Origin: Salinisphaera orenii subsp. halophila YIM 95161
GTDB taxonomy: Bacteria; Pseudomonadota; Gammaproteobacteria; Nevskiales; Salinisphaeraceae
Assembly (NCBI RefSeq): GCF_003732545.1
Contig: NZ_AYKF01000083.1
Coordinates: 1-34,711, forward strand
Length of the DNA stretch: 34,711 nucleotides
Reading direction: 5' to 3'
The number at the start of each line of letters is the position of its first letter. The stretch's first letter is position 1. The position numbers and the translations under genes were made by a program. Positions 434-18,837 of the stretch are shown piece after piece. The notes below the pieces were generated by a model. It worked only from the letters and a program-made list of their open reading frames with translations. It was not told where the DNA came from and did no database searches.

Positions 434-1249
434 CTATTTTCCGGGCCGCTCAAATGTCTGCCATAGGTCCGAAAGTTTCATCGCTTGGGCTAGCAGCACC
501 GGCTGATAGCGTGCCCGCATAGCCTCGACGGATACGCGCGCCGACGACGTGCTTACGCTCAGCGCGGCGACAACGGCTCCTGCGGTGTCGCGAATGGGCG
601 CTGCCATGGCGCGCATGCCGAGTTCGATCTCTTCGTCGCTGATTGCGATGCCGTCGTGGCGTACGGCGTCGATTCGCTCGAGCAGTGCCGGCAGCTCGGT
701 GCATGTTTTTGGGGTACGGCGGACGCGATCGTTGTCGGCCAGCTTGGCCTTAGCGCGCTCGATCGGTAGGTCGCTGATGAGCACACGGCCGGTCGCGGAG
801 CAATATATGGGCAGACGACCGCCGACCTTGACGCCGGTGGTCACCACGCGAGAAGTCTCGGCGCGGGCGACGAAAACCGATTCGTCGTTTTCGAGCATCG
901 TAATCGAAACGGGATCCTCGAGCGTGTCGCGCATGCTGTCGAGCATCGACTGTGCCGCCTCGGTGAACGAGGTCGGCTTTGTATAGCCACGCGATAATCG
1001 GATGAGGCGCGCGCTGGGCTTGAAGTATTGGTCGGCGTCGCGTTCAACGTACCCCAGTTCCGCTAGCGTCAATAGACAACGGCGCGCGGTCGCTCGAGAA
1101 ATGCCGATATGCCGAGCGGCTTCCGCAGATGTGAGTGTGTATCGAACGCCGTCGAACATTTCGATGATAGCCAGTCCCTTGGCCAGGCCGGCCATCCACT
1201 CCGCTGGACGCGCCTTGGCGTCGAATGTTTTGTCGCGCGGGGTTGACAC
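434..1249 (-). CDS. tphR: IclR-family transcriptional regulator, TphR-like
   Basis: This is a predicted regulator of the divergent terephthalate operon. An N-terminal winged helix-turn-helix (about residues 20-85, including SAEAARHIGISRATARRCLL) is followed by an IclR effector-binding domain ending near residue 260. I place the start at GTG 1249, giving 271 residues, because GGGAG lies 8 bases upstream of it. A TTG 15 bases further upstream would add five residues but overlaps that Shine-Dalgarno sequence. IclR proteins regulate tph clusters in Comamonas, and the PcaU/PcaR/PobR regulators belong to the same family. The position, back to back with tphA2 across a gap holding two palindromes, supports a role in TPA-responsive control. 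The effector itself is inferred. Confidence 0.85.
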   Translation of the reverse strand: MSTPRDKTFDAKARPAEWMAGLAKGLAIIEMFDGVRYTLTSAEAARHIGISRATARRCLLTLAELGYVERDADQYFKPSARLIRLSRGYTKPTSFTEAAQSMLDSMRDTLEDPVSITMLENDESVFVARAETSRVVTTGVKVGGRLPIYCSATGRVLISDLPIERAKAKLADNDRVRRTPKTCTELPALLERIDAVRHDGIAISDEEIELGMRAMAAPIRDTAGAVVAALSVSTSSARVSVEAMRARYQPVLLAQAMKLSDLWQTFERPGK

Positions 1250-1272
1250 GATGAAATCTCCCAAATAGTGTT

Positions 1273-1306
1273 GTTCGAAAGTCGAACAAGCGTTCGATAA
1301 TCGAAC
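1273..1306. promoter_or_regulatory. Two tandem palindromic operators between tphR and tphA2
   Basis: Two perfect inverted repeats of the form GTTCGA-N3-TCGAAC occupy 1273-1287 (spacer AAG) and 1292-1306 (spacer TAA). Their centres are 19 bp apart, close to two helical turns, so bound dimers would lie on roughly the same DNA face. They sit in the only gap between the divergent tphR and tphA2 genes, 37 bp before the tphA2 ATG. The second site contains GATAAT (1296-1301), a possible -10 element for tphA2, and another GATAAT follows at 1307-1312. The likely ligand is the adjacent IclR protein. This is inferred from position. Confidence 0.75.
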
Positions 1307-1343
1307 GATAATTGCGATTCAATGCTAGCGGAGATCGAAACCG

Positions 1344-2591
1344 ATGAATATAAGAAACGACATCGCCCCACCCACCGAATGGCCGGAAGGCCAGCTCAGC
1401 CGGGTGCCGTACTGGACCTTCCAGCGCGAGGATGTCTATGCCCGTGAACAGGCGCGTATCTATCAGGGCAAGACCTGGAACTATCTCTGTCTCGAAGTGG
1501 AGATCGCCGAGCCCGGCGATTACGTGGCGACCCATATCGGCGATACGCCGGTGATCGTCACCCGCGCCGAAGACGGCGAAATCTATGCGTTCGAGAACCG
1601 CTGCGCGCATCGCGGCGCGCTGCTCGCGCTCGACGATCGCGGCAAGGCCAAGGATTTCACCTGCGTCTATCATGCCTGGACCTACAGCCTGCAGGGCGAT
1701 CTCACCGGTATCGCCTTCAAGGACGGTATCGGTGGCAAGGGCGGCATGCCCGACAACTTCTGCATGGCCAAGCACGGGCCCATGAAGCTGCGCGTGACCA
1801 CGCTCTACGGGCTGGTCTTCGGCAGCTTCTCCAACGAAGTGCCGGCGATCGAGGAATACCTCGGCGATGAAGTCCTGGCCTGTGTCGAGCGCGTACTCAA
1901 GGGTCGCAAGCTCGAGGTGATCGGCCGTTTCACCCAACAGCTGCCCAACAACTGGAAGCTGTATTTCGAGAACGTCAAGGACAGCTACCACGCCTCGATC
2001 CTGCATCTGTTCTTCACGACCTTCGAAATCAATCGTTTGTCGCAGAAGGGCGCGATCATCGTCAGCGAAGACGGCGGCAACCATGTCAGCTATTCGGCGA
2101 TCGATCCCGACGCCGAACGCGACGAGGATTACGCCAAGGAAAAAATCCGCTCGGAAAGCGACTATCGCCTGGCCGACCCGTCGTTGCTCGACAACTTCGA
2201 AGAATTCGGTGATGGCGTGACGCTCCAGATTCTGTCGGTATTCCCCGGCTTCGTGCTGCAGCAGATTCAGAACTGCATCGCCGTGCGCCAGATCATTCCG
2301 CAGTCGGTCGAGCAGACCGAGCTCAACTGGACCTATCTCGGCTTCACCGACGACACCCCCGAGCAGCGCCGGATCCGGCTCAAGCAGAGCAACCTCGTCG
2401 GTCCGGCCGGCTATGTCTCGATGGAAGACGGCTGCGTGGGCGGTTTCGTACAGCGCGGCATTGCCGGCGTGCCGGAACACAGCTCGATCATGGAAATGGG
2501 CGGCCATGATGCCCAGTCGAGCGAAAGCCGGGTAACCGAAGCCTCGATCCGCGGCTTCTGGAAAGCCTACCGTCGGGAGATGGACGTATGA
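1344..2591 (+). CDS. tphA2: Terephthalate 1,2-dioxygenase, oxygenase alpha subunit
   Basis: This is the catalytic subunit of a Rieske ring-hydroxylating dioxygenase of 415 residues. The [2Fe-2S] Rieske motif is visible as C87-x-H89 and C107-x2-H110. The mononuclear iron site shows D213-x2-H216-x4-H221 within [12 protein letters not shown]. The subgroup containing this motif includes TphA2 and the anthranilate dioxygenase AndAc. The PdxA-like dehydrogenase two genes downstream discriminates in favour of terephthalate. TphA2A3 would convert TPA to 1,2-dihydroxy-3,5-cyclohexadiene-1,4-dicarboxylate in the cytoplasm, using electrons from TphA1. A GGAG lies about 10 bases before the ATG. The stop overlaps the tphA3 start (ATGA), indicating translational coupling. 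Substrate identity is inferred from context. Confidence 0.88.
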
Positions 2592-3076
2592 CGGGCGTAC
2601 CACTCAGCCAGAGCGAACTGTTTCATCTGATCGCCCGTGCGCAGGCGGCCTATACGCGCTGTGTCGATGACGAACGAGCCCAGAGCTGGCCGGATTTCTT
2701 TACCGAGTCCTGTCTCTATGTCGTGACCACGGCCGACAACTATGCCGCCGGCTTCGAGGCCGGCCTGATGTATGCCGATAGCCGCGGCATGCTCGAGGAC
2801 CGTATTTCGGCGCTCAACGAGGCCAATATTTACGAGCAACAAAGCTATCGACATCTGCTGGGCCAGCCGGATATCCGCAATGTGAGCGACGACGGCATCG
2901 ACGTCGAGACCAGTTTCATGGTCGTGCGCATCATGCGCAACGGCGGCACGAGCGTGTTCGCTTCCGGGCGCTATATCGACCGCTATGTCGTCGAACAAGG
3001 GCGCGCCCTTCTGGCCAAGCGCATCGTCGTGTGCGACAGCAAGACGATCGATACCCTGCTGGCGTTGCCGTTATGA
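2588..3076 (+). CDS. tphA3: Terephthalate 1,2-dioxygenase, oxygenase beta subunit
   Basis: This is the small structural subunit of the alpha/beta Rieske oxygenase, 162 residues, of the SnoaL-like cone fold used by ring-hydroxylating beta subunits. Recognisable family features are the N-terminal acidic segment, [14 protein letters not shown] near residue 60, and the C-terminal strand block [28 protein letters not shown]. No catalytic residues are expected. Its start overlaps the tphA2 stop and its stop overlaps the tphB start, each as ATGA. The three genes are therefore translationally coupled. Isophthalate-type systems use an oxygenase without a beta subunit, so its presence favours the terephthalate assignment. 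Confidence 0.88.
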
Positions 3077-4059
3077 GCGCTGCGTTCGTGGTGGCCGTGC
3101 CGATCGGCGATCCGAACGGCATCGGCCCGGAGATCGCGATCGCCGCGGCGCAGGCGCTGGCCGCAGGCTCGCCGGTGCGTGCGGTGCTGGTAGGCGATGC
3201 CCATGTGCTCGAGCACTACGCGGCGGCCGTAGGGGTGGCACTACGCCGCTGGGCGCCGGGCGCGCCGCTGTCGACGGGGGCTACGGATACCGTCGATATG
3301 GTCGATGTGGCCGCGCTGCCTGCCGAGGCCTTTCGGCCCGGCGACTGTGGCCCGGCCTCGGGCGCCGCGACCGTGGCCTATCTCAAGGCCGCCATCGAAC
3401 TTACCGCCTCGGGCGACGCGCAGGCGATCGTCGGCTGCCCACATCACGAGGGCGCGGTTAACGCATCGGGTACCCCGTTCCAGGGTTATCCCGCGCTGTT
3501 GGGCGAACTTACGCACGCCGAAGCCGATTCGGTGATCCTGATGCTGGAAGGCGGCGGATTTCGTATTGCCCACGTCACTTTGCACGAGTCGGTGGTCAAC
3601 GCGGTCACCCGTGTCAACGAGGCCATGGTGGTGCGCGCGGCCGAGATCACGCTCGCGGCGCTGGCGCGTCGCGGTATCGACAAGCCGCGGCTGGGCATAT
3701 TCGGGATCAACCCGCATGCTGGCGAGAACGGCCTGTTCGGTCACGAGGACGAGCAGGTGACGCGCCCGGCGGTCGCCCGTCTGAAGCAAGCCGGCCATCG
3801 TATCGAAGGCCCGCTCGGCGCGGATCTGATGCTGTCGGAAGATCGTTGCGACGGCTATGTCGCCATGTTTCACGATCAGGGCCATATCCCGATCAAGCTC
3901 CTGGCCCAACGTGAAAGCGTGGCCTATTCGCTGGGCGCGGATTTCATGTTCGCAAGTGTGGGGCACGGCAGCGCGCCGGATATCGCGGGCCAGGGCAAAG
4001 CGGATCACCGGCCCTTGCTCGCCACGCTGAATGCGATCGCCGGGAATGTTGCCGCCTAG
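3073..4059 (+). CDS. tphB: PdxA-like 1,2-dihydroxy-3,5-cyclohexadiene-1,4-dicarboxylate dehydrogenase
   Basis: This 328-residue protein is a PdxA homologue. In tph clusters such proteins oxidise and decarboxylate the TPA cis-dihydrodiol to protocatechuate. The family opening VPIGDPNGIGPE is present. The three metal-binding histidines of PdxA align with H171 (HVTLHESV), H215 (INPHAGENG) and H267 (MFHDQGHIP). The ATG at 3073 overlaps the tphA3 stop as ATGA. A role in pyridoxal phosphate synthesis is unlikely because it is coupled to a Rieske dioxygenase and is not next to ksgA/surA-type genes. Cofactor choice and product are known for the family and were not tested here. Confidence 0.87.
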   Translation: MSAAFVVAVPIGDPNGIGPEIAIAAAQALAAGSPVRAVLVGDAHVLEHYAAAVGVALRRWAPGAPLSTGATDTVDMVDVAALPAEAFRPGDCGPASGAATVAYLKAAIELTASGDAQAIVGCPHHEGAVNASGTPFQGYPALLGELTHAEADSVILMLEGGGFRIAHVTLHESVVNAVTRVNEAMVVRAAEITLAALARRGIDKPRLGIFGINPHAGENGLFGHEDEQVTRPAVARLKQAGHRIEGPLGADLMLSEDRCDGYVAMFHDQGHIPIKLLAQRESVAYSLGADFMFASVGHGSAPDIAGQGKADHRPLLATLNAIAGNVAA

Positions 4060-4078: not shown

Positions 4079-5080
4079 ATGCAAAGACAGATCACAGTTG
4101 CCGGCCGCGAGACGGTTTTCCCCTGCGGCGAAAGCGAAACCGTGCTCGATGCGGCCGAACGGGCCGGTTGGGGCCTGCCCTATTCCTGTCGCAAGGGCGT
4201 GTGTTCGAGCTGCGAAGCACGGGTCGTGTCCGGTGAAGTCGCCTGCGGGCCCGGCGCGCGCCGCGAGAACGGGCCGCTGGACGCGGTCAAGCTATGCCAG
4301 GCGGTGCCGCTGACCGATATCGAGATCGATCCGGTCTATATCACCGATCGCACGCCCCCGGCGCGTCGGCGTATGCAGGCCCATGTTTTTCGTATCGATA
4401 CCCCGTCCGCCGACGTGCGTATCGTGCACCTGCGTTTTCCGATCGGCCGGCGGGTGCCGTTTCAGGCCGGGCAGTACGTCAAACTGCTGCTCGACGACGA
4501 CCTGAGCCGCAACTATTCGCTGGCCAATCCGCCGCGCGACAACGATGCGGTTCAATTGCACGTGCAGCGATTGCCCGGCGGCTATTTTTCGGACCGGGTT
4601 CTCGGCGGTCTGAACGTCGGCGATGCGCTTGAACTCGAGATGCCGTTCGGCCTGTTCACGCTGTCGGACAGCGACGACGCCCGAACCATTCTGCTGGCCA
4701 CCGGTACCGGCTTCGCGCCGATCCGCTCGATCCTCCAGGATCTGGTGCGCCGCCGGGTCAACCGTCGCGTCTGGTTGTACTGGGGCGCGCGTACGCGTGA
4801 CGAGATCTACCAGTTCGAGCAGATGCAGGCGCTGGATCAACGCTACGACTGGTTCTCGTTCGTGCCGGTGCTGTCGCGACAATCGCAGGCGCCGGCATGC
4901 CGGCAGGGCTATGTGCAGTCGGCGGTGCTCGAAGATCATCCCGATCTGGCGGACTACGAAGTCTATGCCTGCGGCAGCCAGACGATGGTCCAGGCCGCCC
5001 ACGACCGGTTGATCGAAGACGGCGGCTTGGACGAGGCGAATTTCTATTCAGACGTCTTCGTGCCGGCCACAACGGAATGA
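4079..5080 (+). CDS. tphA1: Terephthalate dioxygenase reductase, ferredoxin-FAD-NAD(P)H type
   Basis: This is the electron-transfer component for TphA2A3, 333 residues. An N-terminal plant-type [2Fe-2S] ferredoxin domain has C37-x4-C42-x2-C45 and C73. An FAD-binding domain follows, with RNYSLAN near residues 143-149. The NAD(P)H domain has ATGTGFAPIRSIL and a late YACGS motif. The start at ATG 4079 has AAGGAG six bases upstream. An in-frame ATG 48 bases earlier lies inside tphB and has no such site. Domain order matches TphA1 and other class IB-type reductases. It follows tphB by 19 bp in the same operon. Confidence 0.88.
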   Translation: MQRQITVAGRETVFPCGESETVLDAAERAGWGLPYSCRKGVCSSCEARVVSGEVACGPGARRENGPLDAVKLCQAVPLTDIEIDPVYITDRTPPARRRMQAHVFRIDTPSADVRIVHLRFPIGRRVPFQAGQYVKLLLDDDLSRNYSLANPPRDNDAVQLHVQRLPGGYFSDRVLGGLNVGDALELEMPFGLFTLSDSDDARTILLATGTGFAPIRSILQDLVRRRVNRRVWLYWGARTRDEIYQFEQMQALDQRYDWFSFVPVLSRQSQAPACRQGYVQSAVLEDHPDLADYEVYACGSQTMVQAAHDRLIEDGGLDEANFYSDVFVPATTE

Positions 5081-5165: not shown

Positions 5166-6200
5166 ATGATAAGAAACAAACGATTCGGCAAAGCGTGTAT
5201 TGCGCTGCTAGGTGCTGCGATGACGTTGCTGTCGAGCGCGGCGATGGCCGACATCATGGTCATGGGCGGCAACCCCACCGGCAGCCTGTTCTACGCACAG
5301 TCCCAGGCGATCGCCTCGACGATCGGCCGGCATACCGATCTGCGCGTGGACGTGTTGCCCCAGTCCAGCACCGTGTTTTTCCCGATGTTCATGACCGGCG
5401 AAGCCGATATCGGCCTGGCCAGTCCGATCGGCGCGCTGTTGGCCGCCGATGCCGAAGGCCCGTACGACGGGGCCAACGGGGGCAAGGGCTATCGCATGAA
5501 AACCGTCATGCTCGGCTCGCCGATCCGCCTGTCGCTGGTAGTGCGCAAGGGCGCCGGTATCGACTCGGTGGCGGATCTCGAGGGCAAGCGGGTCGTGGCC
5601 AACTACGGTGCATTCGCTGGTTCGACGATCACCGCGCTGGCGGTACTGGCGAACGGCGGTTTGAGCCGTGACGACGTGTCCGTGGTGAACGTGTCGAGCT
5701 ATCCGGGAGGCGTACGCGCGGTGATGGAAGGCCGTGCCGATGCCGCGGTCGGCTCGGTGGGCAGCGGCATACTGCAACAGCTCAATGCCCAGAGTGGCGC
5801 CAAGATCCTGCCGATCGATCCCTCGGAGGACGCCATGGCGCGCTCTAAAGCCGTCGGGCCGGCCTTCGTGCCGCTATTGGTCGAGAAAGGCAGTTCGGTC
5901 GGCGTGGCCGAGGACACCTATACCCTGAGCTATGCGGAAACCATCTATGCCCGCCCCGACCTGGACCATGCCAAGGTCACGGCCGTGATCGATGCGCTCT
6001 GGGCGCACCACGACGAGCTGCCGAAAGTGCATCGCAGCCTGTCGACCTGGACACCCGATCGCTTCGTCAGTACCCAGGCCGCGTTGCCCTACCATCCGGC
6101 GGCGATCGCGTATTACAAGGAAAAGGGTGTGTGGACCGACGACATGGCCCAGCGCCAGAAGCAGCTGCTTGCCGAAGAAGCCGAGCGCGCGAAACGCTGA
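5166..6200 (+). CDS. TAXI-family TRAP transporter solute-binding protein
   Basis: This 344-residue periplasmic binding protein belongs to the TAXI (TRAP-associated extracytoplasmic immunogenic) family. A Sec signal peptide (positive MIRNKR, hydrophobic core, cleavage after SSAAMA near residue 28) precedes the mature start DIMVMGGNPTGSLFY. Family blocks include MFMTGEADIGLASPIGA and a DLEGKRVVANYGAFAGS segment. AGAGAGG precedes the ATG. It follows tphA1 by 85 bp and precedes a fused TRAP permease, so its ligand is probably terephthalate or a related dicarboxylate. This is inferred from operon position. Known TPA uptake systems use TphC of the tripartite tricarboxylate family or MFS permeases. 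Confidence 0.88.
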   Translation: MIRNKRFGKACIALLGAAMTLLSSAAMADIMVMGGNPTGSLFYAQSQAIASTIGRHTDLRVDVLPQSSTVFFPMFMTGEADIGLASPIGALLAADAEGPYDGANGGKGYRMKTVMLGSPIRLSLVVRKGAGIDSVADLEGKRVVANYGAFAGSTITALAVLANGGLSRDDVSVVNVSSYPGGVRAVMEGRADAAVGSVGSGILQQLNAQSGAKILPIDPSEDAMARSKAVGPAFVPLLVEKGSSVGVAEDTYTLSYAETIYARPDLDHAKVTAVIDALWAHHDELPKVHRSLSTWTPDRFVSTQAALPYHPAAIAYYKEKGVWTDDMAQRQKQLLAEEAERAKR

Positions 6201-6338: not shown

Positions 6339-8258
6339 GTGTTACAGAATCGAAGGCCTCTGACAGGGCTATGGGCCCTGTTCGCCCGCCTGATGGCGGC
6401 GCTGGTGCCCGTGTCGACGATCGTCTACGTGTCGCGGGTGTTACCGGACATGGGCTTGATCGTCTACAAGGAACAGTTCCTGGCGTTTTTTCTGACGCTT
6501 TGTCTGGCCCTGACTTTCATGACCGTGCCGGCGCGTGCGGCGCACAAGCAACAGGCACACGTGCCCTGGTATGACGTGATCCTGGTGCTCGCGGCGCTCG
6601 CGATCGGCGGCTACATTTCGTTCGAATATGGCTCGCTGATCACCACGATGGGGTTGATCACCGACGACAAGGTCCTTGTCAGCGCTATCGGTGTCGTGCT
6701 GCTGCTCGAGGCGGCCCGCCGCCAGGCGGGCTGGGTGATGGTCGGGCTGGCCCTGGTCGCGCTGAGCTATGCCTATTTCGGCCATCATCTGTCCGGCGTT
6801 TTCGAAACCCGCGTGATCGGGCTCGACCGGCTGCTCATCTATAACTATCTGGGCACCGGCGCGATCCTCGGTACGCCGTTATACGTGGCGGCCACCATCG
6901 TTGCGGCGTTCGTGTTGTTCGGTCAGGTGTTGTTCCTGGTCGGCGGCGGCGATGCGATTTCCAACTTCGCCTTCGCCTTGATGGGCCGTCGCCGCGGCGG
7001 CCCGGCCAAGGTGGCGGTGCTGTCGAGCGCCTTTTTCGGCTCGCTGTCGGGTAGTGCCTCGGGCAATGTCGCGACCACCGGTATGCTGACGATCCCGATG
7101 ATGCGTCGCGTGGGGTATAGCGATACCAAGGCAGCCGCGATTGAGGCGGTGGCGTCCACTGGAGGCCTGGTACTGCCGCCGGTCATGGCTGCGACCGGCT
7201 TCCTGATGGCTGAATTCCTCGGTATTCCGTACAGCACGGTGGCCATCGCCGCCGCGATCCCGGCGCTGCTGTTCTATCTGTGTGTCTACCTTCAGGTGGA
7301 CATGGAGGCGGGGCGCAACGGTATCACCGGCTGGCAGGGCGATGACCTGCCGGGCTTGCGTCGTTCGTGTATCGAGATACTGCCGGTCGTTCTGCCGTTC
7401 GCCGGGCTGCTCTATACCTTGTTCGCGCTGTACTGGAGCCCGGCGGCGTCCGCGTTCATGGGTACTGGCATCACGATTATCGTCAGTCTCGCACTGGCCT
7501 GGATGCGTCAGAGTGCGCGTGGCTATTTCAACGTGATCGCGACGGCGGGTGAAGCAGTCGTGTTCATCGCGATCATGTGTGCCGTTGCTGGCCTGGTCGT
7601 CGGTTGTCTGGGGTTAACCGGGCTGGGATCGAGTCTGGCCCAGAATCTGGTCACATTGTCGGGCGGCAGCGTCTGGTTGCTGCTGGGCTTCGCCGCGATC
7701 GGCTGTATCGTGCTCGGAATGGGCGTGCCGGTCACTGCGACCTATATCATTCTCGTGATCCTTGTCGGGCCGGCACTGGTGGAAGTCGGAGTCGACGATC
7801 TGAGCGCGCACATGTTCGTGTTCTATTTCGGTACGCTCTCATTCTTGACGCCGCCGGTCTGTCTTGCGGTGTTCGTAGCGGCATCGATCGCACAGTCGCC
7901 GCCCATGCGTACAGCCGGTTATGCGCTTCGGTTCGCGATCGTCGCTTATTTGATTCCATTCGTGTTCGTGTTCAATCCGGCGTTTCTGTTCCAAGGAACG
8001 TGGTTGGAGATCGCGAACGCGACGGTAGCCGGTATTGTCGGTGTGTTCCTTCTGTCGGCAGGTCTGGTCGGTTACCTGAAGGCGCCGCTGTCGATCGCAT
8101 TACGCGTACTGCTCGTAGGTGCGGGGCTGGTCGCTCTATTCCTATGCGGCACGTCCTGGCTGGTAACGCTGTTTGCGGTCGCCTTACTTATCGTAGTGAG
8201 CCGTTATAAATTCGGTTCCTCGGACAAGCGTACGCTGGGTTCGGCACCTGTCAGCTAA
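6339..8258 (+). CDS. Fused TRAP transporter permease (4TM plus 12TM)
   Basis: This 639-residue inner-membrane protein fuses the small (DctQ-like, N-terminal) and large (DctM-like) TRAP subunits, the form that partners TAXI binding proteins. Many hydrophobic spans are visible. Family signatures include FFGSLSGSASGNVATTG (about residue 228), EAVASTGGLVLPPVMAATGFLMAEF (about residue 268) and a repeat of this type in GMGVPVTATYIILVILVGPAL. The start is GTG at 6339 with AGAGGAG upstream. It would drive ion-coupled uptake of the ligand captured by the preceding TAXI protein. It is the last gene of the operon and is followed 54 bp later by an intrinsic terminator. Confidence 0.9.
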   Translation: MLQNRRPLTGLWALFARLMAALVPVSTIVYVSRVLPDMGLIVYKEQFLAFFLTLCLALTFMTVPARAAHKQQAHVPWYDVILVLAALAIGGYISFEYGSLITTMGLITDDKVLVSAIGVVLLLEAARRQAGWVMVGLALVALSYAYFGHHLSGVFETRVIGLDRLLIYNYLGTGAILGTPLYVAATIVAAFVLFGQVLFLVGGGDAISNFAFALMGRRRGGPAKVAVLSSAFFGSLSGSASGNVATTGMLTIPMMRRVGYSDTKAAAIEAVASTGGLVLPPVMAATGFLMAEFLGIPYSTVAIAAAIPALLFYLCVYLQVDMEAGRNGITGWQGDDLPGLRRSCIEILPVVLPFAGLLYTLFALYWSPAASAFMGTGITIIVSLALAWMRQSARGYFNVIATAGEAVVFIAIMCAVAGLVVGCLGLTGLGSSLAQNLVTLSGGSVWLLLGFAAIGCIVLGMGVPVTATYIILVILVGPALVEVGVDDLSAHMFVFYFGTLSFLTPPVCLAVFVAASIAQSPPMRTAGYALRFAIVAYLIPFVFVFNPAFLFQGTWLEIANATVAGIVGVFLLSAGLVGYLKAPLSIALRVLLVGAGLVALFLCGTSWLVTLFAVALLIVVSRYKFGSSDKRTLGSAPVS

Positions 8259-8311
8259 GGGCGTTACGATCGGGTAACGGGTGTTCGATAGCGCGACTGT
8301 CTGCGAGTGAC

Positions 8312-8332
8312 GCCGGGCCAAACCCGGCTTTT
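8312..8332 (+). terminator. Intrinsic terminator of the tph-TRAP operon
   Basis: A perfect 6-bp GC stem (GCCGGG, loop CCAAA, CCCGGC) is followed directly by TTTTA. It lies 54 bases past the permease stop and ends the plus-strand operon. Confidence 0.85.
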
Positions 8333-9191: not shown

Positions 9192-10424
<1,233 letters not shown>

Positions 10425-10450: not shown

Positions 10451-11074
10451 CTAAAAGTCGAAAAACAGCGTTTCCTGCGGGCCCTGCAGATGGATCTCGA
10501 AGCGATAGCGCGCGGTTTCGCCGTCGGATTCGCGCCGGGCGACCAGCGTGTCGCGACGGCTGGGCGGCAGGCCGTTGAAAAACGGGCAGGCCGCGTTCGC
10601 CGTGCTCTCGTCATCGAAATGCAGCCGCGTGTTCAAATGGATATTGATACCGCGGGCGAACAGCATCAGATTGATATGCGGTGCCATCTCGCCGCCGTTC
10701 GGGTGCGTGACTCGACCAGGCTTTACGCTTTGAAACGACCACTGGCCGGCGTCGTTCTCGCCCGGCGCGCTGCGCCCGAAGCCGCGAAACGCGCGATCGG
10801 TTCGAAAATCGGTCTGATAGACGCCGTTCGCGTCGGCCTGCCAGGCCTCGACCAGAATATCTTCGACCGCGTCGCCGTTGCCGTCGATCACGGTGCCGAC
10901 GATCTCGATCGGTTCGCCTTCGGCCGCGGTGGTGGCGATCGTCGGGCCGATCTCGTCGTCGCGTGGCGGCAGGCCGGCCACTTCCAGCGCCAGGCCGATA
11001 TGAACATAGGGTCCGGCCGTCTGCGAGGGCGATTCGGGATACATGAGGCCGCCGTCTTTTGTCGGTTGTGTCAT
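10451..11074 (-). CDS. pcaG: Protocatechuate 3,4-dioxygenase alpha subunit
   Basis: This is the non-catalytic subunit of the intradiol ring-cleaving enzyme that opens protocatechuate to 3-carboxy-cis,cis-muconate. At 207 residues it has the normal length. Family features include TPSQTxGPY-like SPSQTAGPYVHIGLA near the N-terminus, DILVEAWQADANGVY near residue 75, and HINLMLFARGINIHLNTRLHF near residue 135. PcaG forms the mixed active-site shell with PcaH. In most bacteria pcaH and pcaG are nearly contiguous. Here 436 bp separate them and contain a structured repeat, and no separate promoter for pcaG is evident. The Shine-Dalgarno sequence is weak (AGGAC, 9 bases before the ATG). Confidence 0.93.
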   Translation of the reverse strand: MTQPTKDGGLMYPESPSQTAGPYVHIGLALEVAGLPPRDDEIGPTIATTAAEGEPIEIVGTVIDGNGDAVEDILVEAWQADANGVYQTDFRTDRAFRGFGRSAPGENDAGQWSFQSVKPGRVTHPNGGEMAPHINLMLFARGINIHLNTRLHFDDESTANAACPFFNGLPPSRRDTLVARRESDGETARYRFEIHLQGPQETLFFDF

Positions 11075-11510: not shown

Positions 11511-12248
11511 TCACCCCTGGTTCTCGAAATAGGTCTGCAGCGCGCCGCGGGTGACGATATCGAAGCGGTACGCCAGGCTGTCCATCGGCCGCGAGCCGGC
11601 CTTGTCCAGGCGGGCGACGAGCGTGTCGATCGCGTCGGGGTCGTTGAGCGTATGCATGATCGGGCACAGCGGAATCAGCGGGTCGCCCTCGAAGTAGAGC
11701 TGCGTGATCAACCGGGTGCTGATCGCAGGACCCATCACCGACACATGGATATGTGCCGGGCGCCAGGAGTTCACATCGTTGGGCCACGGATAAGGGCCCG
11801 GCTTGATGGTACGAAAGCGATACCAGCCGTCGGCATCGGTCACGGTCCGGCCCACGCCGCCGAAATTCGGATCGAGCGGCGCCATATAGGCGTCTTTCTT
11901 GTGCCGATAGCGCCCGCCGGCGTTGGCCTGCCAGATTTCGACCAGCGTGCCGGGCACGGGTTTGTTGTACTGATCGACGACCCGGCCATAGACGATGATG
12001 CGCTCGCCGATCGGCAGACCGTCGCGGTCCGTGCCGGGGCGAAAGTTCAGCAACAGGTCGTTATCGACCGGGCCCAGCACGAAATTGTCGAAATCGGGGC
12101 CGGTGAGCTCGGAGGCGGTCGGCGTCTGCAGGCTGACCAGCGACTGCTGCGGCGAGCGTGCGACTGTGGTCTTGTAAGCGGGCGCATAAGGTCGCGGGTG
12201 CCAGCCGCGATCACGCATGACGAAGGCGGTACGGTCGTTCTGCGCCAT
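11511..12248 (-). CDS. pcaH: Protocatechuate 3,4-dioxygenase beta (catalytic) subunit
   Basis: This is the iron(III)-binding subunit of the intradiol dioxygenase, 245 residues. The four iron ligands are visible as Y114 (GGRYRHKKD), Y153 (PGPYPWPN), H166 and H168 ([10 protein letters not shown]). Flanking family blocks [17 protein letters not shown] and [24 protein letters not shown] are intact. I chose ATG 12248 because GGAG lies 7 bases upstream; an in-frame ATG 45 bases earlier lacks this. It begins 123 bp after the pcaQ stop and has a PcaQ-box-like palindrome in front of it, so it probably has its own regulated promoter. Confidence 0.95.
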
Positions 12249-12366
12249 GTAAATCTCCTGCATGGCACGCTGCGCACGGCCTATAGCTCGCACGCGACGT
12301 GTTTTGTTATCTATTCGATTGTGGCGAATCGATGACGATTGCCAAGTGAAAGTCGGGCGACTCGAT

Positions 12367-12382
12367 ATAACCTATAGGTTAT
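12367..12382. promoter_or_regulatory. PcaQ-box-like palindrome upstream of pcaH
   Basis: The perfect 16-bp palindrome ATAACC-TATA-GGTTAT closely matches the ATAACC-N4-GGTTAA motif I recall for PcaQ in Sinorhizobium. It lies about 119 bp before the pcaH ATG and overlaps the last codons and TAG stop of pcaQ. PcaQ bound here could activate pcaHG-pobA. Confidence 0.75.
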
Positions 12383-13310
12383 TTAATTTATAGGACACCG
12401 GATACGCGGCGGCCACGTCGCGCAGGCAATCACAGAAATCTTCGACCGCACGCGGGGTCGGTTGACTGGTGTTCACCGCATAACCTACGGAACCGCCGCG
12501 TGCTTCGATTGGCTGGGCCAGTCGTACGAGCGTGCCGGCGGCGATGGCTTCGCGGGCGGTATCCTGCGGCGTGATCCATACCGCGTCGGACATGAGCGCA
12601 TAGCGTGTGCTCAACGGCAACGACAGGGTTTCCACGGCCAGGCGCGGCGGTTCGGCCGCCTGTTCGACCCAGAATCGTTCGAGCTGTTCGCGCAGGGTAG
12701 TACCGCGCGGCGGCACAACCCACGGGTAGGCCATGAGGGCGGGGGTGTCCGGTGCGTGGCTGCTCGTCAGCAACGGATGATCGCGCCGCACGACGGCGAT
12801 CAGCGGCTCGTAGTAGAGATGCTGGAATTGCAGGTCGCGAATCTCTTCGGCCTCGCTCATGCGCCCGAGCACCAGATCCAGCTCGCCCAGGCGCAGGCGT
12901 GCCAGCAGAGCGGCGCTGGTGCCGGTATCCACTTCCATGCGCAGGTCGGGCTGGCGAGCATGCAGGCGATACAGCACTTCGGGCAGCAGCCCGCCTTCGA
13001 CGTTGGACAGCGCGCCCAGACGTACCACGGTTTCGACGGTGTCCTGGCGGATCGCATCGATGCCTTCGCGTAGCGAACGCAGAGCGGGTGCGGCATGACG
13101 CAGCAGGGTGCGCCCGGCCGGGGTCAGGCGAACGCCGCGGGGCAGGCGTTCGAACAGCTTGACGCCGAGGCTCTCCTCGAGCTCGCGGAGGGTCTTGGAA
13201 ATACCCGGCTGGGTGATCGACAGCGCCTCGGCGGCGGACTTGATCCGCCCCAGCCGTGCTACCTCCTGAAAGGCGACCAGATGGCGCAGCTTGATCGGCG
13301 AATGAATCAC
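12372..13310 (-). CDS. pcaQ: LysR-family regulator of protocatechuate catabolism
   Basis: This 312-residue LysR-type regulator has an N-terminal winged helix-turn-helix (IKLRHLVAFQEVARLGRIKSAAEALSITQPGISKTLREL..., residues 6-65) and a C-terminal periplasmic-binding-like effector domain. Length, sequence style and placement inside the pca run match PcaQ, which activates pca genes in response to pathway lactone intermediates. It lies between the pcaD-pcaC fusion and pcaH on the same strand. This differs from the divergent arrangement common in rhizobia. Its last codons form part of the probable PcaQ-binding palindrome. Autoregulation through read-through from the upstream genes is possible but not shown. 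Confidence 0.87.
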   Translation of the reverse strand: MIHSPIKLRHLVAFQEVARLGRIKSAAEALSITQPGISKTLRELEESLGVKLFERLPRGVRLTPAGRTLLRHAAPALRSLREGIDAIRQDTVETVVRLGALSNVEGGLLPEVLYRLHARQPDLRMEVDTGTSAALLARLRLGELDLVLGRMSEAEEIRDLQFQHLYYEPLIAVVRRDHPLLTSSHAPDTPALMAYPWVVPPRGTTLREQLERFWVEQAAEPPRLAVETLSLPLSTRYALMSDAVWITPQDTAREAIAAGTLVRLAQPIEARGGSVGYAVNTSQPTPRAVEDFCDCLRDVAAAYPVSYKLNNL

Positions 13311-13355: not shown

Positions 13356-14534
13356 TTACGGCGCAGCGCTCGAGCCCCAACCCTGCTCCTTGGCGAGCTT
13401 GAAGGCATGATTGGCGGCCGGCACGCCGGCATAAATCGCGACATGCATCAGCGCCTGGCGCAGTTCGGCTTCGCTTACGCCGATGCGCTGCGCGGTCTTG
13501 AGATGCAGGATCAGCTCGCCATCGCGTCCGAGCGCGGCGAGTATGGCGGTCGTGATCAGGCTGCGTTGGGTGCGTGACAGATCGGGATTGCCCCAGAGCT
13601 CGCCCCAGGCATAGCGGGTGATCAGGTCCTGGAAGGACGCATCCAGCGTTGTGGCCGACGCGCCGGCACGCTCGACGTGTTCGCTGCCCAGTACCGATTT
13701 GCGCGTTTCCAGGCCTTGGGCATAGGTCAGCGGCGGGGCGTTGTCGTCGTCGTTCGTAGCGAAGGCGTGAAGCAAGCTATCAGTAAAGGCATCGCTGTCT
13801 TCGACGGACGGCACATGGGCCACGTCGTCGATCGTGTCCAGCGGCGCGCCGCCGAGTTCGTCGGCCAATGCTTCGAGCGCCGACACCGGCGTGGCCGGGT
13901 CCTCGGCGCCGGCGATCAAGCAAACCGGGCGATCGACGCCGGCCAGCTTGCCGCGGAAATCGGCTTCGGCGAGCAGTTCGCACAGCCGGGCATAGCTTTC
14001 ATCGTCGGTACGTGCGAGCTGATGCGTCCAGCCGGCAACCCCCGCCGGCTGCTGATCCTTGTAGGCATCGGCGAACCAGCGCTGCGAGAGTTCGGCGGCC
14101 ATCTGTTCGAGGCCTTCGCTACGCACACGCGCAGCGCGCTGTTGCCAGGCGTCCGGCGTGCCGATCGCCGCGCCGGTATTGGTAAGCACCACGCGATCGA
14201 GCCATTCCGGCGCGTCGAGCAGCAAGGCCTGGCCGATCACGCCGCCGATCGAGGTGCCGACGAACCCACAGCGTTCGACGCCGAGCGCTGCCAGCAACGC
14301 CTGCGCGTCGCGGGCGAGATCGCGCGCGGTCACGGCCGTGCTAGCCGGCGCACTGGCGCCGTGGCCGGGCAGGTCCCAGCGAATACACCGATAGCGCCCG
14401 CGCAGACGCGCGACGACATCGGCCCAGACCTGTTGCGACATGCCCAGCGGGTGCGCGAACAAAACCGCGGGCAGGGCCGTTTCCCCGCTCTCCTGATAAC
14501 AGATCACCCGCCCGTTGCATTCGACAAACGCCAT
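13356..14534 (-). CDS. pcaL: Fused 3-oxoadipate enol-lactonase / 4-carboxymuconolactone decarboxylase
   Basis: This 392-residue protein joins two consecutive enzymes of the pathway. Residues 1-262 are an alpha/beta hydrolase (PcaD) with nucleophile S95 in GTSIGG, acid D212 in GAEDPATP and base H240. Residues about 270-392 are the carboxymuconolactone decarboxylase domain (PcaC) with RYAWGELWGNPDLSRTQRSLI and the late LMHVAIYAGVPAANHAF block. The order, lactonase then decarboxylase, is the PcaL type known from actinobacteria and some proteobacteria. It turns 4-carboxymuconolactone into 3-oxoadipate. It starts 17 bp after pcaF on the same strand. Confidence 0.93.
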   Translation of the reverse strand: MAFVECNGRVICYQESGETALPAVLFAHPLGMSQQVWADVVARLRGRYRCIRWDLPGHGASAPASTAVTARDLARDAQALLAALGVERCGFVGTSIGGVIGQALLLDAPEWLDRVVLTNTGAAIGTPDAWQQRAARVRSEGLEQMAAELSQRWFADAYKDQQPAGVAGWTHQLARTDDESYARLCELLAEADFRGKLAGVDRPVCLIAGAEDPATPVSALEALADELGGAPLDTIDDVAHVPSVEDSDAFTDSLLHAFATNDDDNAPPLTYAQGLETRKSVLGSEHVERAGASATTLDASFQDLITRYAWGELWGNPDLSRTQRSLITTAILAALGRDGELILHLKTAQRIGVSEAELRQALMHVAIYAGVPAANHAFKLAKEQGWGSSAAP

Positions 14535-14551: not shown

Positions 14552-15760
<1,209 letters not shown>

Positions 15761-15762
15761 GT

Positions 15763-16536
15763 TTAGGCCTCGCTGTGGTGTTTTTCGGTGCGCGCCTTGA
15801 GATCGCGCAGCACCTCGAGTTCGTGATCGTCGGGCTCCGGCGTTTCGCCCAGATCGGCGGCGAAACGGATCGCCCAGCCGGTGGCCTCTTCAACCTGCGC
15901 CCGGGTCACGCCCGGATGCAGGGAGGTTACCGTGAGTTCCTTGGTTTGCGTATCGGGCTGCATCACACACAGATCCGTGATGATGCGCGTCGGGCCGCGG
16001 CCGATGTTGGGCACGTTGTCGCGGGCGGTCCCGTCACGGCCGAAACCGACCGTGGTGATGAAATCCGCCGCGTCCACGAACGTGCGCTTGGAATGCTTGA
16101 GGGTGATGAATATCTCGCCCGTACAGGTCGCCATTTCCGGCGCGCCGCCGCCGCCCGGCAGGCGGACCTTTGGCTGGGTGTAGTCGCCGATCAGCGTGGT
16201 ATTCAGGTTCGCATACTTGTCGACCTGGGCAGCACCCAAAAAACCGACGTCGATCTGGCCGCCCTGGACCCAGTAGCGAAACATCTCGGGCACCGACACA
16301 GTGGTCAACGCCGTTTCGCACAGTTCGCCGTCGCCGATCGACAGCGGCAGTACCTCGGGCTTGGTCTGCAAGGTCCCGGATTCGTAGATGAGTACGACAT
16401 CCGGCGCGTGCGTGAGACGGGCCAGATTGGCTGCTTCGCTGGGCAGGCCGATGCCCACGAAACAGCTCTGGCCGTTGTGCAGCGCACGCGCTGCGGTGAC
16501 CGTCATCATTTCCGAGGAATCGTAGCGCTCGCTCAT
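15763..16536 (-). CDS. pcaJ: 3-oxoadipate CoA-transferase subunit B (CatJ type)
   Basis: This is the second subunit of the enzyme that moves CoA from succinyl-CoA to 3-oxoadipate, 257 residues. The segment GIGLPSEAANLARLTHAPDVVLIYESGTL contains the probable catalytic Glu in YESG (about residue 52). The glycine-rich LPGGGGAPEM follows near residue 148. The length and motif style match the glutaconate-CoA-transferase-like CatI/CatJ pair of Pseudomonas strain B13 rather than the shorter classical PcaI/PcaJ. The ATG at 16536 overlaps the pcaI stop as ATGA. Substrate is inferred from the operon. Confidence 0.88.
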   Translation of the reverse strand: MSERYDSSEMMTVTAARALHNGQSCFVGIGLPSEAANLARLTHAPDVVLIYESGTLQTKPEVLPLSIGDGELCETALTTVSVPEMFRYWVQGGQIDVGFLGAAQVDKYANLNTTLIGDYTQPKVRLPGGGGAPEMATCTGEIFITLKHSKRTFVDAADFITTVGFGRDGTARDNVPNIGRGPTRIITDLCVMQPDTQTKELTVTSLHPGVTRAQVEEATGWAIRFAADLGETPEPDDHELEVLRDLKARTEKHHSEA

Positions 16537-17363
16537 GCCGTGTCTCCGTTGTCCTGTCCTGCGGCAAAGACGTGTTCGTCCAGCCAGGCGGTGAACGCTT
16601 CGCGGTCGCGGGCGATCGCGTCCCAGTCCTTGTAGAACTTGTTGGAGCGTGAATAGTAGCCGTGGGTATAGGAGGGCTTCGCGCCAGCGGGCGCTTCGAC
16701 GACGGCCGAGATCACCCAGCCCGGGATCACGCAGGCATTGGCATGCACGTCGAGCTCGTCGACGATCTCTTCCACGGTCACGATCGAATGCGTGGCCGCC
16801 AGCACGGCCTCTTTCTGGACGCCGATGATGCCTTTGACGAGCACGTTGCCGTTCCGGTCGGCCTTCTGCGCATGCACGATCGACACATCCGGACGTATCG
16901 CGGGCACCGCGGCCAGCCGCTCGCCGGTAAACGGGCATTCGATGAACTTGATCTGATCGTTGACCTTGGGCAGATCCGAGCCGATATAACCACGCAGCAC
17001 CGCCAGCGGCAGACCCGAGGCGCCGGCCTCGAAGGCGTTGGCCATGGCCGCATGACTGTGCTCGAGGATCTCGATCTGATGCGGCCAGCCTTTTTCGACC
17101 GCGTCGCGCAGCCGATGCAGCGAGCCGACGCCCGGATTGCCGCCCCAGGAGAAGATCAGTTTGCTGGCACAGCCGGCGCCGATCATCTGGTCGTAGATCA
17201 GGTCGGGCGTCATCCGGATGAGGGTGAGATCGCGTTTTTTCTGGCGGATGACTTCGTGGCCCGCCGCGAACGGAATGAGATGGGTGAAGCCCTCCATCGC
17301 GACGGTGGCCCCATCGGTGACGTAACGGGCGACGGCATCATGCAGCGAGAGAAACTCTGCCAT
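16533..17363 (-). CDS. pcaI: 3-oxoadipate CoA-transferase subunit A (CatI type)
   Basis: This is the first subunit of the heteromeric CoA-transferase, 276 residues. The N-terminal VTDGATVAMEGFTHLIPFAAGHEVIRQ contains the glycine-rich CoA-transferase fold entry, and GNPGVGSLHRLRDAVEKGWP lies near residue 76. It belongs to the CatI-like, glutaconate-transferase-related branch. It overlaps pcaJ by four bases. The 127-bp gap upstream, after pcaB, carries one ATAACC half-site (17415-17420) but no full PcaQ palindrome. The Shine-Dalgarno sequence is weak. Confidence 0.88.
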   Translation of the reverse strand: MAEFLSLHDAVARYVTDGATVAMEGFTHLIPFAAGHEVIRQKKRDLTLIRMTPDLIYDQMIGAGCASKLIFSWGGNPGVGSLHRLRDAVEKGWPHQIEILEHSHAAMANAFEAGASGLPLAVLRGYIGSDLPKVNDQIKFIECPFTGERLAAVPAIRPDVSIVHAQKADRNGNVLVKGIIGVQKEAVLAATHSIVTVEEIVDELDVHANACVIPGWVISAVVEAPAGAKPSYTHGYYSRSNKFYKDWDAIARDREAFTAWLDEHVFAAGQDNGDTA

Positions 17364-17490
17364 GGGACTAGCCTTTCGGTTTGTGCGCTAAACGAACACG
17401 AGTTTGCATAGCGAATAACCTAAAGCGTGGCGGCATGAGCGTCAACGCTGGCGACCGTTTCGCTTGCCGGATGGCCGCTCGGCCGCTGCG

Positions 17491-18837
17491 CTAGAACGAT
17501 TCGAGCGCGCGACGAACACGGGCGACCTGGGCCGCGCTCGCGCCGGTATGGGCGGCCGGGTCGACGGCCGCGCGCACCGCCTCGGCGTCGAATACGGCGC
17601 TGATTTCGGCGTGGTCGAGGAGTATGTCGGCGAGCTCGCGATGGCTTTCGGCCGCCTCGTGGGTGGCCTGGGCGACCAGTTCGGCGGCGCGTTCGTGCGC
17701 CACGCGTTCGGCCAGGAAAGCCGTGATCGGCGCGGTGAGAATCGCGCCGCCGGTCAGCGCCAGGTTGCGCCGCATCGCCTGGGTATGCACATCGAGCCCG
17801 GCCAGTAGCTGTTGCAGGGTTTCCAGTGCGCCCTCGACGAAAAGCACGGCATCGACCAGCGGGGCCCATTCGGCGTGCCATTCACCCAGACCGCGTTCCA
17901 TCGGCTGGGCGCCGGCGTTGTGCAACAGGGCCACGGCCGAATGGACCTGACGCGCGGCGGCGCGGATACGCGCACAGCCCACCGGGTTGCGCTTGTGCGG
18001 CATGGAAGACGAGCCGCCGGCGCCGGTCGAGGCCGGCTCGCTGACTTCGCCGACCTCGGTCTGGGCCATCAACGCCACGTCGAGGGCGATCTTTTCCCCG
18101 GCCACGGCCACCGCACCCAGGGCATCGCCGAGGGCGAGGATCGGCTGGCGATCGGTATGCCAGGGCAGCACCGGACAGGCCAGGCCGAGTTCGCCCGCAA
18201 GCGCGTCCATGAGATCGAGCCCGGTATCGGCAAAACCGGTATGCGTGCCGACCGGGCCGCCGAGCTGCACGAGCAGGCCGTCGCGGGCCACCGGGGCGAG
18301 ACGCCGTTCGGCCTGGGCGAGCCCCCAAAGCCACTGCGCGACCTTGGCGCCGAACGTGATCGGCAGCGCCTGTTGCATGAGGGTTCGTCCGATCATCGGC
18401 GTGTTTTCGTGGCGCGTCATCAGCGCCAGACCGTCGCCACGGCATTGGCCGAGCAGCTTGATACAACGGGCCAGACGCGGTTTGAGCACCAGCATGAGCG
18501 CGCTGTCGACGATGTCCTGACTGGTCGCGCCGCGATGAAAGCTCGCGCGCAGATCGGCGGCCAGCATGGCCTTGGCCTGCTTGACGAACGGAATCGCGAC
18601 ATTGCCGCCATCCGCGCTGTCGGCGGCCAGCGCGTCGAGATCGAACGCCGTCATGTCGATCTGGTCGGCGATCGCCGCGGCCGTGCCGGCGGCCAGCAAG
18701 CCGGCGTCTTCCTGGACCCGGGCGAGCGCGATTTCCACGCGGCACATGGCGTCGACGAATGCCTGCGGCGTACAGGCCGCTTCGCCCACGGAACTCATGA
18801 ACGGGTGACGCAGAAACAGATCGAGCATGGCAGTCAT
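17491..18837 (-). CDS. pcaB: 3-carboxy-cis,cis-muconate cycloisomerase
   Basis: This 448-residue enzyme of the fumarase/aspartase superfamily lactonises 3-carboxy-cis,cis-muconate to 4-carboxymuconolactone. The superfamily signature GSSSMPHKRNPVG lies near residue 275, and the second conserved block SFHRGATSQDIVDSA lies near residue 100. Length fits PcaB. Two ATG codons nine bases apart are possible starts and neither has a strong Shine-Dalgarno sequence; I kept the upstream one. It is the first structural gene after the IclR regulator, from which it is separated by 62 bp containing a 26-bp near-perfect palindrome. Confidence 0.92.
   Translation of the reverse strand: MTAMLDLFLRHPFMSSVGEAACTPQAFVDAMCRVEIALARVQEDAGLLAAGTAAAIADQIDMTAFDLDALAADSADGGNVAIPFVKQAKAMLAADLRASFHRGATSQDIVDSALMLVLKPRLARCIKLLGQCRGDGLALMTRHENTPMIGRTLMQQALPITFGAKVAQWLWGLAQAERRLAPVARDGLLVQLGGPVGTHTGFADTGLDLMDALAGELGLACPVLPWHTDRQPILALGDALGAVAVAGEKIALDVALMAQTEVGEVSEPASTGAGGSSSMPHKRNPVGCARIRAAARQVHSAVALLHNAGAQPMERGLGEWHAEWAPLVDAVLFVEGALETLQQLLAGLDVHTQAMRRNLALTGGAILTAPITAFLAERVAHERAAELVAQATHEAAESHRELADILLDHAEISAVFDAEAVRAAVDPAAHTGASAAQVARVRRALESF

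Follow-up and report, generated by a model that had tools for sequence, protein, structure and literature searches.

How terephthalate (TPA) would enter the cell is the question raised by a contig of Salinisphaera orenii subsp. halophila YIM 95161 (NZ_AYKF01000083.1, contig C83 of a 3.79-Mb draft genome in 153 contigs), whose 34,711 nucleotides are called the window here. At positions 434-18837 it carries genes for TPA oxidation (tph) next to genes for protocatechuate degradation (pca). A preliminary description of this DNA had listed a divergent IclR gene, tphA2A3BA1, pobA and a full pca set, and all of these were found as intact frames (IclR, TphA2A3BA1, PobA, PcaG-H-Q-DC-F-J-I-B). The fusion that it called CD is indeed a fusion, but the order is the reverse, with the lactonase first (PcaD-PcaC). 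It had passed over a gene pair within the block, at 5166-8258, which encodes a solute-binding protein of the TAXI type and a fused permease of a tripartite ATP-independent periplasmic (TRAP) transporter. Our results suggest that the left 8 kb are an acquired TPA uptake-and-oxidation module lying beside the protocatechuate set of the genus, in which the TAXI-TRAP pair probably imports TPA. The enzymes are of known types; what stands out is the importer, which belongs to a specific TAXI-TRAP clade that accompanies tph genes of differing background.

The assignment of the oxygenase rests on comparisons with proteins of known structure and on phylogeny. Searched against the PDB, TphA2 scored 599.6 bits with 7vju and 595.7 bits with 7q04, followed by 7c8z, a salicylate 5-hydroxylase, with 323.5 bits. 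Entry 7vju was deposited simply as a Rieske protein, and we take it to be a terephthalate dioxygenase (TPADO). Residues S249, R315 and R396 of the window protein align to S243, R309 and R390 of TPADO, which are presumably the substrate residues. An alignment of 102 rows was built, comprising 95 TphA2-like rows (91 distinct loci including the window, and 4 repeats) and 7 distant ones. The serine and the two arginines are complete in 95 of the 95 TphA2-like rows, and the distant rows (three plasmid relatives including two AndAc, three from viral contigs and one host paralogue) keep the first arginine alone. A FastTree phylogeny of 97 of the 102 rows (L006 and L136-L139 were left out, the latter being repeats) placed the window within a TphA2 clade with a support of 100 and AndAc outside it; the neighbour of the window protein was that of Sphingobium naphthae, which is linked to an importer of the major facilitator superfamily (MFS; support 98). 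The program warned of long branches for L142, L141, L014 and L036 and of joins between them. The preliminary description had named a grouping with anthranilate or salicylate oxygenases as a result that would speak against its reading; the protein groups with the TPA dioxygenases, and neither with AndAc in the tree nor with salicylate oxygenases in the PDB scores. An identity as anthranilate dioxygenase was also rejected on NCBIfam scores, which stay below the cut-offs for AndAc (448.4 of 750 bits) and AndAd (131.1 of 230 bits). In viral contigs, a single-protein search for TphA2 gave 0 loci and an alignment search gave 3, at 37-38% identity.

It is highly improbable, in our estimate, that this oxygenase acts on a related para-substituted acid and not on TPA. 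In favour of such a substrate, AndAc is the best NCBIfam hit (448 bits), and 16 of 90 close relatives show no TphB nearby, some of them owing to contig cuts, so that the TphA2 clade may hold other activities as well. The AndAc score, however, lies far under its cut-off, TphB is present here, the three residues are kept, and the genes run A2-A3-B-A1, preceded by an IclR gene, as they do in the tph operon of strain GO16 (PMC8601165). The beta subunit, the reductase and a PdxA-type TphB are encoded together with tphA2 in one operon, and the PDB entry closest to TphB is 4aty, a terephthalate dihydrodiol dehydrogenase (278.5 bits). Because the serine and the arginines are also kept in loci without a detected TphB, they do not prove TPA as the substrate, and as a discriminator within the TphA2 clade the residue test fails. 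Five Paraburkholderia loci (L065, L066, L068, L071 and L085) carry TphA2A3 and a reductase with no detected TphB and no known importer; their oxygenase may act on another acid.

The TAXI gene starts 85 bases after tphA1 on the same strand and is followed by the fused permease gene, and both products exceed the cut-offs of their families. To see how this arrangement compares with other tph clusters, a census was made of 90 TphA2-like loci, 80 from genomes (80 of at least 543 confirmed relatives) and 10 from plasmids, in which importers within 5-9 kb of tphA2 were labelled by similarity thresholds. An MFS importer was seen at 39 loci, a tripartite tricarboxylate transporter (TTT) at 33, TAXI at 4 and none at 14 (11 full and 3 cut loci), which makes the window the fifth TAXI locus. 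The other four belong to Pacificitalea manganoxidans plasmid pDY25-B, Paracoccus albus p2, Pseudooceanicola antarcticus and Mesorhizobium sp. YIM 152430, and are 63-65% identical to the window in TAXI, 61-64% in the permease, 64-66% in TphA2 and 48-49% in TphB. Sulfitobacter sp. HI0040 has a TphA2 identical to that of pDY25-B and a TAXI gene on a separate contig. The P. albus locus also encodes a binding protein of the TTT type, some 4 kb past tphA2, whose similarity fell under the census threshold. Among the window proteins scanned, no TctC-type binding protein of a TTT importer was found beside tph. Three of the alphaproteobacterial tph loci (L009, 5115-6503; L010; L083) encode, next to TAXI, a protein of 462 residues with many hydrophobic stretches and no Pfam match.

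Searches were also started from the TAXI protein. Among 72,556 plasmid records, a close relative (E<=1e-40) was found in two, both with tph, and nine more appeared at E<=1e-12, all at most 31% identical. Of 369 genomes sampled from the class, none but the host and one other (G030) passed E<=1e-50, and in a phylum sample of 398 genomes nothing passed E<=1e-60 beyond the central genome itself (1 of 398). Within the Pseudooceanicola family (394 genomes), four passed the TAXI search: two at 64% identity with TphA2 (G383 and G534) and two at 35-37% without it. In G534, the TAXI and TphA2 genes have the same coordinates as in pDY25-B, which suggests that G534 and the carrier of that plasmid are one strain. 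None of the seven other TAXI proteins of the host, nor any TAXI protein of its family, exceeds 33% identity to the one in the window. In an IQ-TREE phylogeny of 20 rows, the tph-linked TAXI proteins formed one clade (82/85), nested in a clade with G030 (99/99). In the TphA2 tree, by contrast, the window is separated from the alphaproteobacterial TAXI loci by two rows without TAXI, the MFS-linked L040 and L015, which has genes for an ATP-binding cassette (ABC) transporter nearby, so that two recruitments or later replacements are needed; the fork that holds all of them has a support of only 83.

The ligand was approached through structure and through residues known from a glutamate-binding relative. 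The predicted structure of the TAXI protein (mean predicted local distance difference test score, pLDDT, 87.5) has TAXI proteins as its nearest folds, and four of the first five are described as glutamate-binding or as having a glutamate-receptor-like core. In VcGluP, which like TtGluBP is a TAXI protein of the glutamate type, Y45 and Q93 matter most for glutamate (PMC11574862). These positions align to F42 and S86 of the window protein in a pairwise alignment of about 20% identity, for which an offset of 28 between chain and paper numbering fits S40, V44, Y45, Y46 and Q93. The other tph-linked TAXI proteins also have F and S there, and G030 has F and N. The replacement of both residues argues against glutamate as the ligand, without showing that it is TPA.

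An unlikely alternative, though one to be taken seriously, is that the tph enzymes do use TPA while the TAXI-TRAP pair carries o-phthalate, isophthalate, protocatechuate, 2-oxoglutarate, glutamate or another compound, with TPA entering by the MFS protein of the aromatic acid symporter family (AAHS type) encoded at 22543-23481 or by another system. The substrates in print for TAXI systems are glutamate, 2-oxoglutarate/2-hydroxyglutarate and o-phthalate (PMC12344293, PMC13040137), a symporter gene of the right family is at hand in the window, and G030 has a close TAXI-TRAP pair without tph. The MFS gene (22543-23800, − strand), however, is split over two frames, its profile match beginning at position 123 of 398 and its N-terminal part lying in the other frame, which makes it either a pseudogene or a draft error; its product is also only 25-28% identical to tph-linked MFS proteins on plasmids. 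Against this alternative stand further the replaced glutamate-binding Tyr and Gln and the occurrence of TAXI with tph in six hosts, which represent about three distinguishable branches.

Several observations nevertheless weigh against TPA import by the TAXI-TRAP pair. The pair is found downstream of tphA2 and codirectional with it in the window, but 1.8-7.1 kb upstream, on the opposite strand and with at least one gene between, at each of the four other TAXI loci. Two further transport systems, an MFS protein and DctPQM, are encoded in the window as well. G030 has a TAXI-TRAP pair 55-58% identical to that of the window in a genome without TphA2 at E<=1e-40, so the wider TAXI clade is not confined to tph. 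The tph-linked TAXI clade has a support of 82/85 only. Three of the genomes (G383, G384 and G385) were found via TphA2, so that co-occurrence in them is not independent, and the finds made from TAXI first are the two plasmids and G534 only. The copies in Rhodobacterales are near-identical, which brings the six hosts down to the three or so branches named above. In the G030 stretch (L119), a UbiD-family decarboxylase, a PaaK-like CoA ligase and a PcaR-type IclR regulator are encoded beside TAXI-TRAP; this neighbourhood looks like another aromatic acid pathway, perhaps an oxygen-independent route for a phthalate isomer or a hydroxyaromatic compound.

We continue to regard import of TPA by the TAXI-TRAP pair as the probable reading. 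In the pathway proposed from the gene content, the periplasmic TAXI protein would feed TPA to the fused TRAP permease, TphA2A3 with the reductase TphA1 would dihydroxylate the imported TPA, TphB would oxidise and decarboxylate the diol to protocatechuate, and PcaHG, PcaB, PcaDC, PcaIJ and PcaF would convert protocatechuate to succinyl-CoA and acetyl-CoA. On paper, the gene set suffices to take both TPA and 4-hydroxybenzoate to these products, and the predicted functions support a TPA dioxygenase/dehydrogenase set combined with a protocatechuate 3,4-cleavage set. What the analysis establishes directly are the genes, their homologies, the conserved substrate residues, the operator motifs, the linkage and the distribution; we infer that the importer is specific for TPA, that the regulation described below operates and that the host grows on TPA.

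Comparison with known systems places the importer more precisely. Comamonas sp. E6 shares the TPA dioxygenase and TphB with the window, has a binding protein of the TTT class (TphC/TpiBA) and degrades protocatechuate by 4,5-cleavage. The tphRA2A3BA1K cluster of P. umsongensis GO16 resembles the window in its order IclR-A2-A3-B-A1 and feeds a pca pathway, but its importer is the MFS protein TphK, whereas the window has TAXI-TRAP; the GO16 operon gave TPA growth in P. putida, and strain KT2440 with tphRA2A3BA1 of GO16 did not grow on TPA when tphK was absent (PMC8601165). Plasmid pDY25-B has TphA2A3BA1, the TAXI-TRAP pair and the operator upstream of tphA2 in common with the window and differs from it as an alphaproteobacterial plasmid with a tannase-family gene, an IclR gene downstream and no pca gene listed within 12 kb. 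The MHETase-like mle046 has been placed on this plasmid (PMC8351946), and the pTPD cluster of a marine consortium, which has the same sequence as the one on pDY25-B, is reported to be without tphC, as is the whole metagenome without any homologue of that gene (Meyer-Cifuentes 2020, PMC7666164); the accessible parts of that paper name no transporter. Related in kind are the o-phthalate TAXI-TRAP systems of Aromatoleum/Azoarcus and of Pseudomonas sp. PTH10 (OpaL/OpaN), set beside the window by their description and not by sequence: they too combine a TAXI binding protein and a fused permease beside a phthalate-isomer cluster, but for the ortho isomer and with other enzymes (PMC6362003, PMC13040137). 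A 2026 review lists MFS, TTT, ABC and TAXI-TRAP importers for phthalate isomers, with TAXI-TRAP for o-phthalate (PMC13040137). In Thioclava grown on polyethylene terephthalate (PET), bis(2-hydroxyethyl) terephthalate (BHET) or TPA, TRAP transporters were raised and carriage of TPA was suggested, the type being unnamed (PMC8215760). We found no report of a TAXI-TRAP system carrying TPA in the literature searched, which was mainly open-access.

We lean towards the wider view that a distinct TAXI-TRAP clade is a further class of TPA importer beside MFS (TpaK/TphK) and TTT (TphC/TpiBA), that different tph backbones acquired it on more than one occasion, and that it includes the missing pDY25-B/pTPD transporter of the marine plastic-degrading consortium. 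If this is true, it would name a transporter for a marine cluster reported without tphC (PMC7666164) and would extend to an aromatic ligand the short list of substrates known for this transporter family (PMC12344293). In strains for PET upcycling, the uptake of TPA is an established bottleneck (PMC13040137, PMC8601165), and a binding-protein-dependent importer of two genes would be suited to low TPA concentrations and could be transferred as a small cassette. TPA uptake by marine tph carriers thus becomes a directly testable question.

Whether the whole block has a single origin was judged from the distribution of its genes. Of the 17 genomes of the family, 9 have pcaH, namely that of the host and those of 8 of the 13 congeners (73-94% identical), and TphA2 and the close TAXI are confined to the host, the sole other hit among the 17 being an oxygenase of 29% identity in G001. 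A single transfer of the whole 18-kb block was rejected on these counts, and the distribution sets the tph module with TAXI-TRAP against a native pca set. In the stretches taken from eight congeners, the pca order is the same where the genes are present, with pcaB seen in seven (60-77% identical) and pcaI/pcaJ matches in four. Nucleotide similarity to six of these stretches ends at 9194-9209, the end of pobA, and nothing to the left of that point matched in the eight. We read the 18-kb block as a composite, with a transposase remnant at the far side of the module. Base composition does not part the block (0.627 vs 0.650 G+C), no plasmid match was found that would mark the junction at 8259-9191 as a relic, and no plasmid holds a near-identical island, none reaching above 13% coverage. 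Congeners L112, L113 and L117 show no pcaI/pcaJ match in the interval from pcaB to pcaF, so their CoA-transferase genes have been relocated or lost.

Linkage of tph with a full pca set had been called uncommon. It is, with 3 of the 90 other loci (the S. frequens TPA3 plasmid, a Streptosporangiaceae metagenome-assembled genome and Streptomyces cellulosae), a count that is a lower bound owing to short contigs and the 12-kb limit; it was also already known, for example from the Stutzerimonas frequens TPA3 plasmid. In the window, the uncommon linkage arises because the tph module adjoins the genus-native pca set. The tph genes on the + strand and the pobA-pca genes on the − strand are convergent and do not form one operon. 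Plasmid unnamed2 of TPA3 likewise holds tph and pca in one stretch, together with a porin related to one in the window, but has an MFS importer, unfused pcaC and pcaD, an IS30 between the sets and no pcaGH listed in the stretch.

PobA, PcaG, PcaH, PcaDC and PcaF lie above their NCBIfam cut-offs. Below them are PcaI (40.4 vs 128.5), PcaJ (46.9 vs 243.55) and PcaB (322.5 vs 355.75 and 368.1 vs 595), and a pcaQ-like LysR gene within the set falls just short. PcaI, PcaJ and PcaB are 73%, 63% and 35% identical to their counterparts in the pca set of the TPA3 plasmid, and the putative assignments of PcaI, PcaJ, PcaB and PcaQ rest partly on context. The gap between pcaH and pcaG measures 436 bases (11075-11510) vs about 10-13 in congener L111, and contains an element of about 274 bases (about 11143-11416) whose ends, AGGGCCTGTT..ACGTTTCGT, look inverted by eye. 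Congeners L115, L116 and L118 have matches to it of 81-85% identity and 77-274 bases in length, which mark it as a repeat of the genus that resembles a miniature inverted-repeat transposable element. This repeat, together with the MFS and DctM genes split over two frames, would be in keeping with a region that is degraded or silent. Such a state is improbable in our view, since none of the frames of tph, TAXI-TRAP or pca is broken and a draft of 153 contigs may hold sequencing errors.

Putative regulatory sites point to a connection between the two gene sets. The IclR regulator at 434-1264 is 47-50% identical to the tph-adjacent IclR proteins of R. jostii RHA1, S. frequens TPA3 and C. insecticola. 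It scores below the TIGR02431 cut-off, and the second IclR regulator scores above it (Table 1). Between its gene and tphA2 lie two exact GTTCG-N5-CGAAC sites, 19 nt apart, and further sites precede the second IclR gene (exact) and pcaI (one mismatch). The window contains ten sites with at most one mismatch vs 2.22 expected, a number reached in 0 of 100 shuffles. Among the 90 loci, the motif lies upstream of tphA2 in 38 as an exact copy and in 54 with at most one mismatch; the remaining 1.68 Mb of sequence in those loci contain 10 exact copies. For TTT, the comparison covered 21 loci that have an IclR homologue: the nine with a site have regulators 38-46% identical to that of the window, and of the twelve without a site, eleven have regulators at 33-36% and the twelfth at 40%. 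The operator was found upstream of tphA2 in all four other TAXI loci, and beside the IclR gene, which is located elsewhere, in none of them. At the DSM 16611 locus (L019) used for comparison with GO16, the regulator is 44% identical and the operator is the same. One or two sites with at most one mismatch are present near the second IclR gene, pcaB and pcaI in all six congener stretches looked at.

Operators of Group 1 IclR regulators follow GTNCG-N5-6-CGNAC, with tandems 18-22 nt apart (PMC8222616), and the candidate tph operators correspond to this palindrome between regulator and target. The Comamonas TphR box, TTGCGC-N5-GCGCAA, differs from the operator of the window and from the PcaU consensus core GTTCGATWATCGMAC (PMC8222616, Table 1). 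As the second tph site fits this core and sites also precede pca genes, cross-talk between tph and pca control is plausible. The IclR protein at 434-1264 would act on the two tandem operators, which resemble the PcaU/PcaR box, and in this way tph and pca expression could be coordinated. TphR has been suggested to be able to coordinate the two (PMC8601165), and the PcaU-like operator could provide a sequence basis for that suggestion.

Growth on PET monomers with the help of a PET hydrolase elsewhere in the genome had also been proposed and found no backing: the genome has no match to the PETase family PF12740 (the control matched in 6 of 14 genomes) or to the tannase/MHETase family PF07519 (its control set was silent, yet plasmids pDY25-B and P. 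albus p2 matched), other esterase families not having been searched. PF07519 had no match in G383, G384 or G385 either.

Table 1. Coordinates of the features from the left end of the window to the operator of the second IclR gene, with the evidence for each.
Feature	Position	Strand	Evidence
Transposase C-terminal part, DDE_3 domain	2..349	+	PF13358 57.0 bits; at contig end, 84 bases from IclR gene
IclR-family regulator (TphR/TpaR-like), divergent to tphA2	434..1264	-	TIGR02431 256.4 bits, below cut-off 284.75
Candidate IclR operator 1, GTTCG-N5-CGAAC	1273..1287	+	Exact match
Candidate IclR operator 2, 19 nt from operator 1	1292..1306	+	Exact match; fits PcaU core GTTCGATWATCGMAC
tphA2, terephthalate 1,2-dioxygenase alpha subunit	1344..2591	+	PDB TPADO matches
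tphA3, dioxygenase beta subunit	2588..3076	+	PF00866; 51-60% to tph-linked beta subunits of ten plasmid loci
tphB, PdxA-like cis-dihydrodiol dehydrogenase	3073..4059	+	Best PDB match 4aty, 278.5 bits
tphA1, reductase (2Fe-2S, FAD, NAD domains)	4079..5080	+	Domain matches; start may be 4031
TAXI-type TRAP solute-binding protein, proposed TPA-binding	5166..6200	+	TIGR02122 127.9 bits, cut-off 84.35
Fused TRAP permease, proposed TPA permease	6339..8258	+	TIGR02123 551.9 bits, cut-off 320.65
Junction	8259..9191		No similar stretch in congener stretches taken or in plasmids
pobA, 4-hydroxybenzoate 3-monooxygenase	9192..10379	-	TIGR02360 653.5, cut-off 538.7
pcaG, protocatechuate 3,4-dioxygenase alpha	10451..11074	-	TIGR02423 217.5, cut-off 126.25
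pcaH, protocatechuate 3,4-dioxygenase beta	11511..12293	-	TIGR02422 326.2, cut-off 296.4
pcaQ-like LysR regulator	12372..13310	-	TIGR02424 302.6, cut-off 303.8
pcaDC, fused enol-lactonase/carboxymuconolactone decarboxylase	13356..14534	-	NF051488 413.4, cut-off 390
pcaF, 3-oxoadipyl-CoA thiolase	14552..15760	-	TIGR02430 659.7, cut-off 597
pcaJ, CoA-transferase subunit B (divergent type)	15763..16536	-	PF01144; 63% to TPA3 subunit
pcaI, CoA-transferase subunit A (divergent type)	16533..17363	-	PF01144; 73% to TPA3 subunit
Candidate PcaR-type operator upstream of pcaI	17383..17397	-	1 mismatch to palindrome
pcaB, carboxymuconate cycloisomerase	17491..18837	-	NF006554 368.1 bits, below cut-off 595
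Second IclR regulator, PcaR/PobR type	18900..19740	-	TIGR02431 293.7, cut-off 284.75; start uncertain in frame 18900-20528
Candidate IclR operator before second IclR gene	19757..19771	+	Exact palindrome

The transposase at the left end is presumably of the IS630 family, and an IS1595-type transposase at 34145-34711 is cut by the other contig end. No Rfam, tRNA or tandem-repeat match was obtained in the window. An aldehyde dehydrogenase gene (19861-21438, + strand) and a gene for a thiamine-diphosphate enzyme (24073-25665, − strand) adjoin the pca set; the latter was matched by its domains alone, and we take it to resemble benzoylformate decarboxylase. The two perhaps form a side route for mandelate or benzaldehyde. 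A DctP-DctQ-DctM TRAP system at 26934-29766 (+ strand) has its large permease gene split over two frames. About 25 kb from tphA1, a porin of the alginate-export type is encoded at 29881-31305 (+ strand), which is 47% identical to the tph-adjacent porins of S. frequens TPA3 and P. veronii pPVG21 and 50% identical to porins of P. umsongensis and Pseudomonas sp. TH41.

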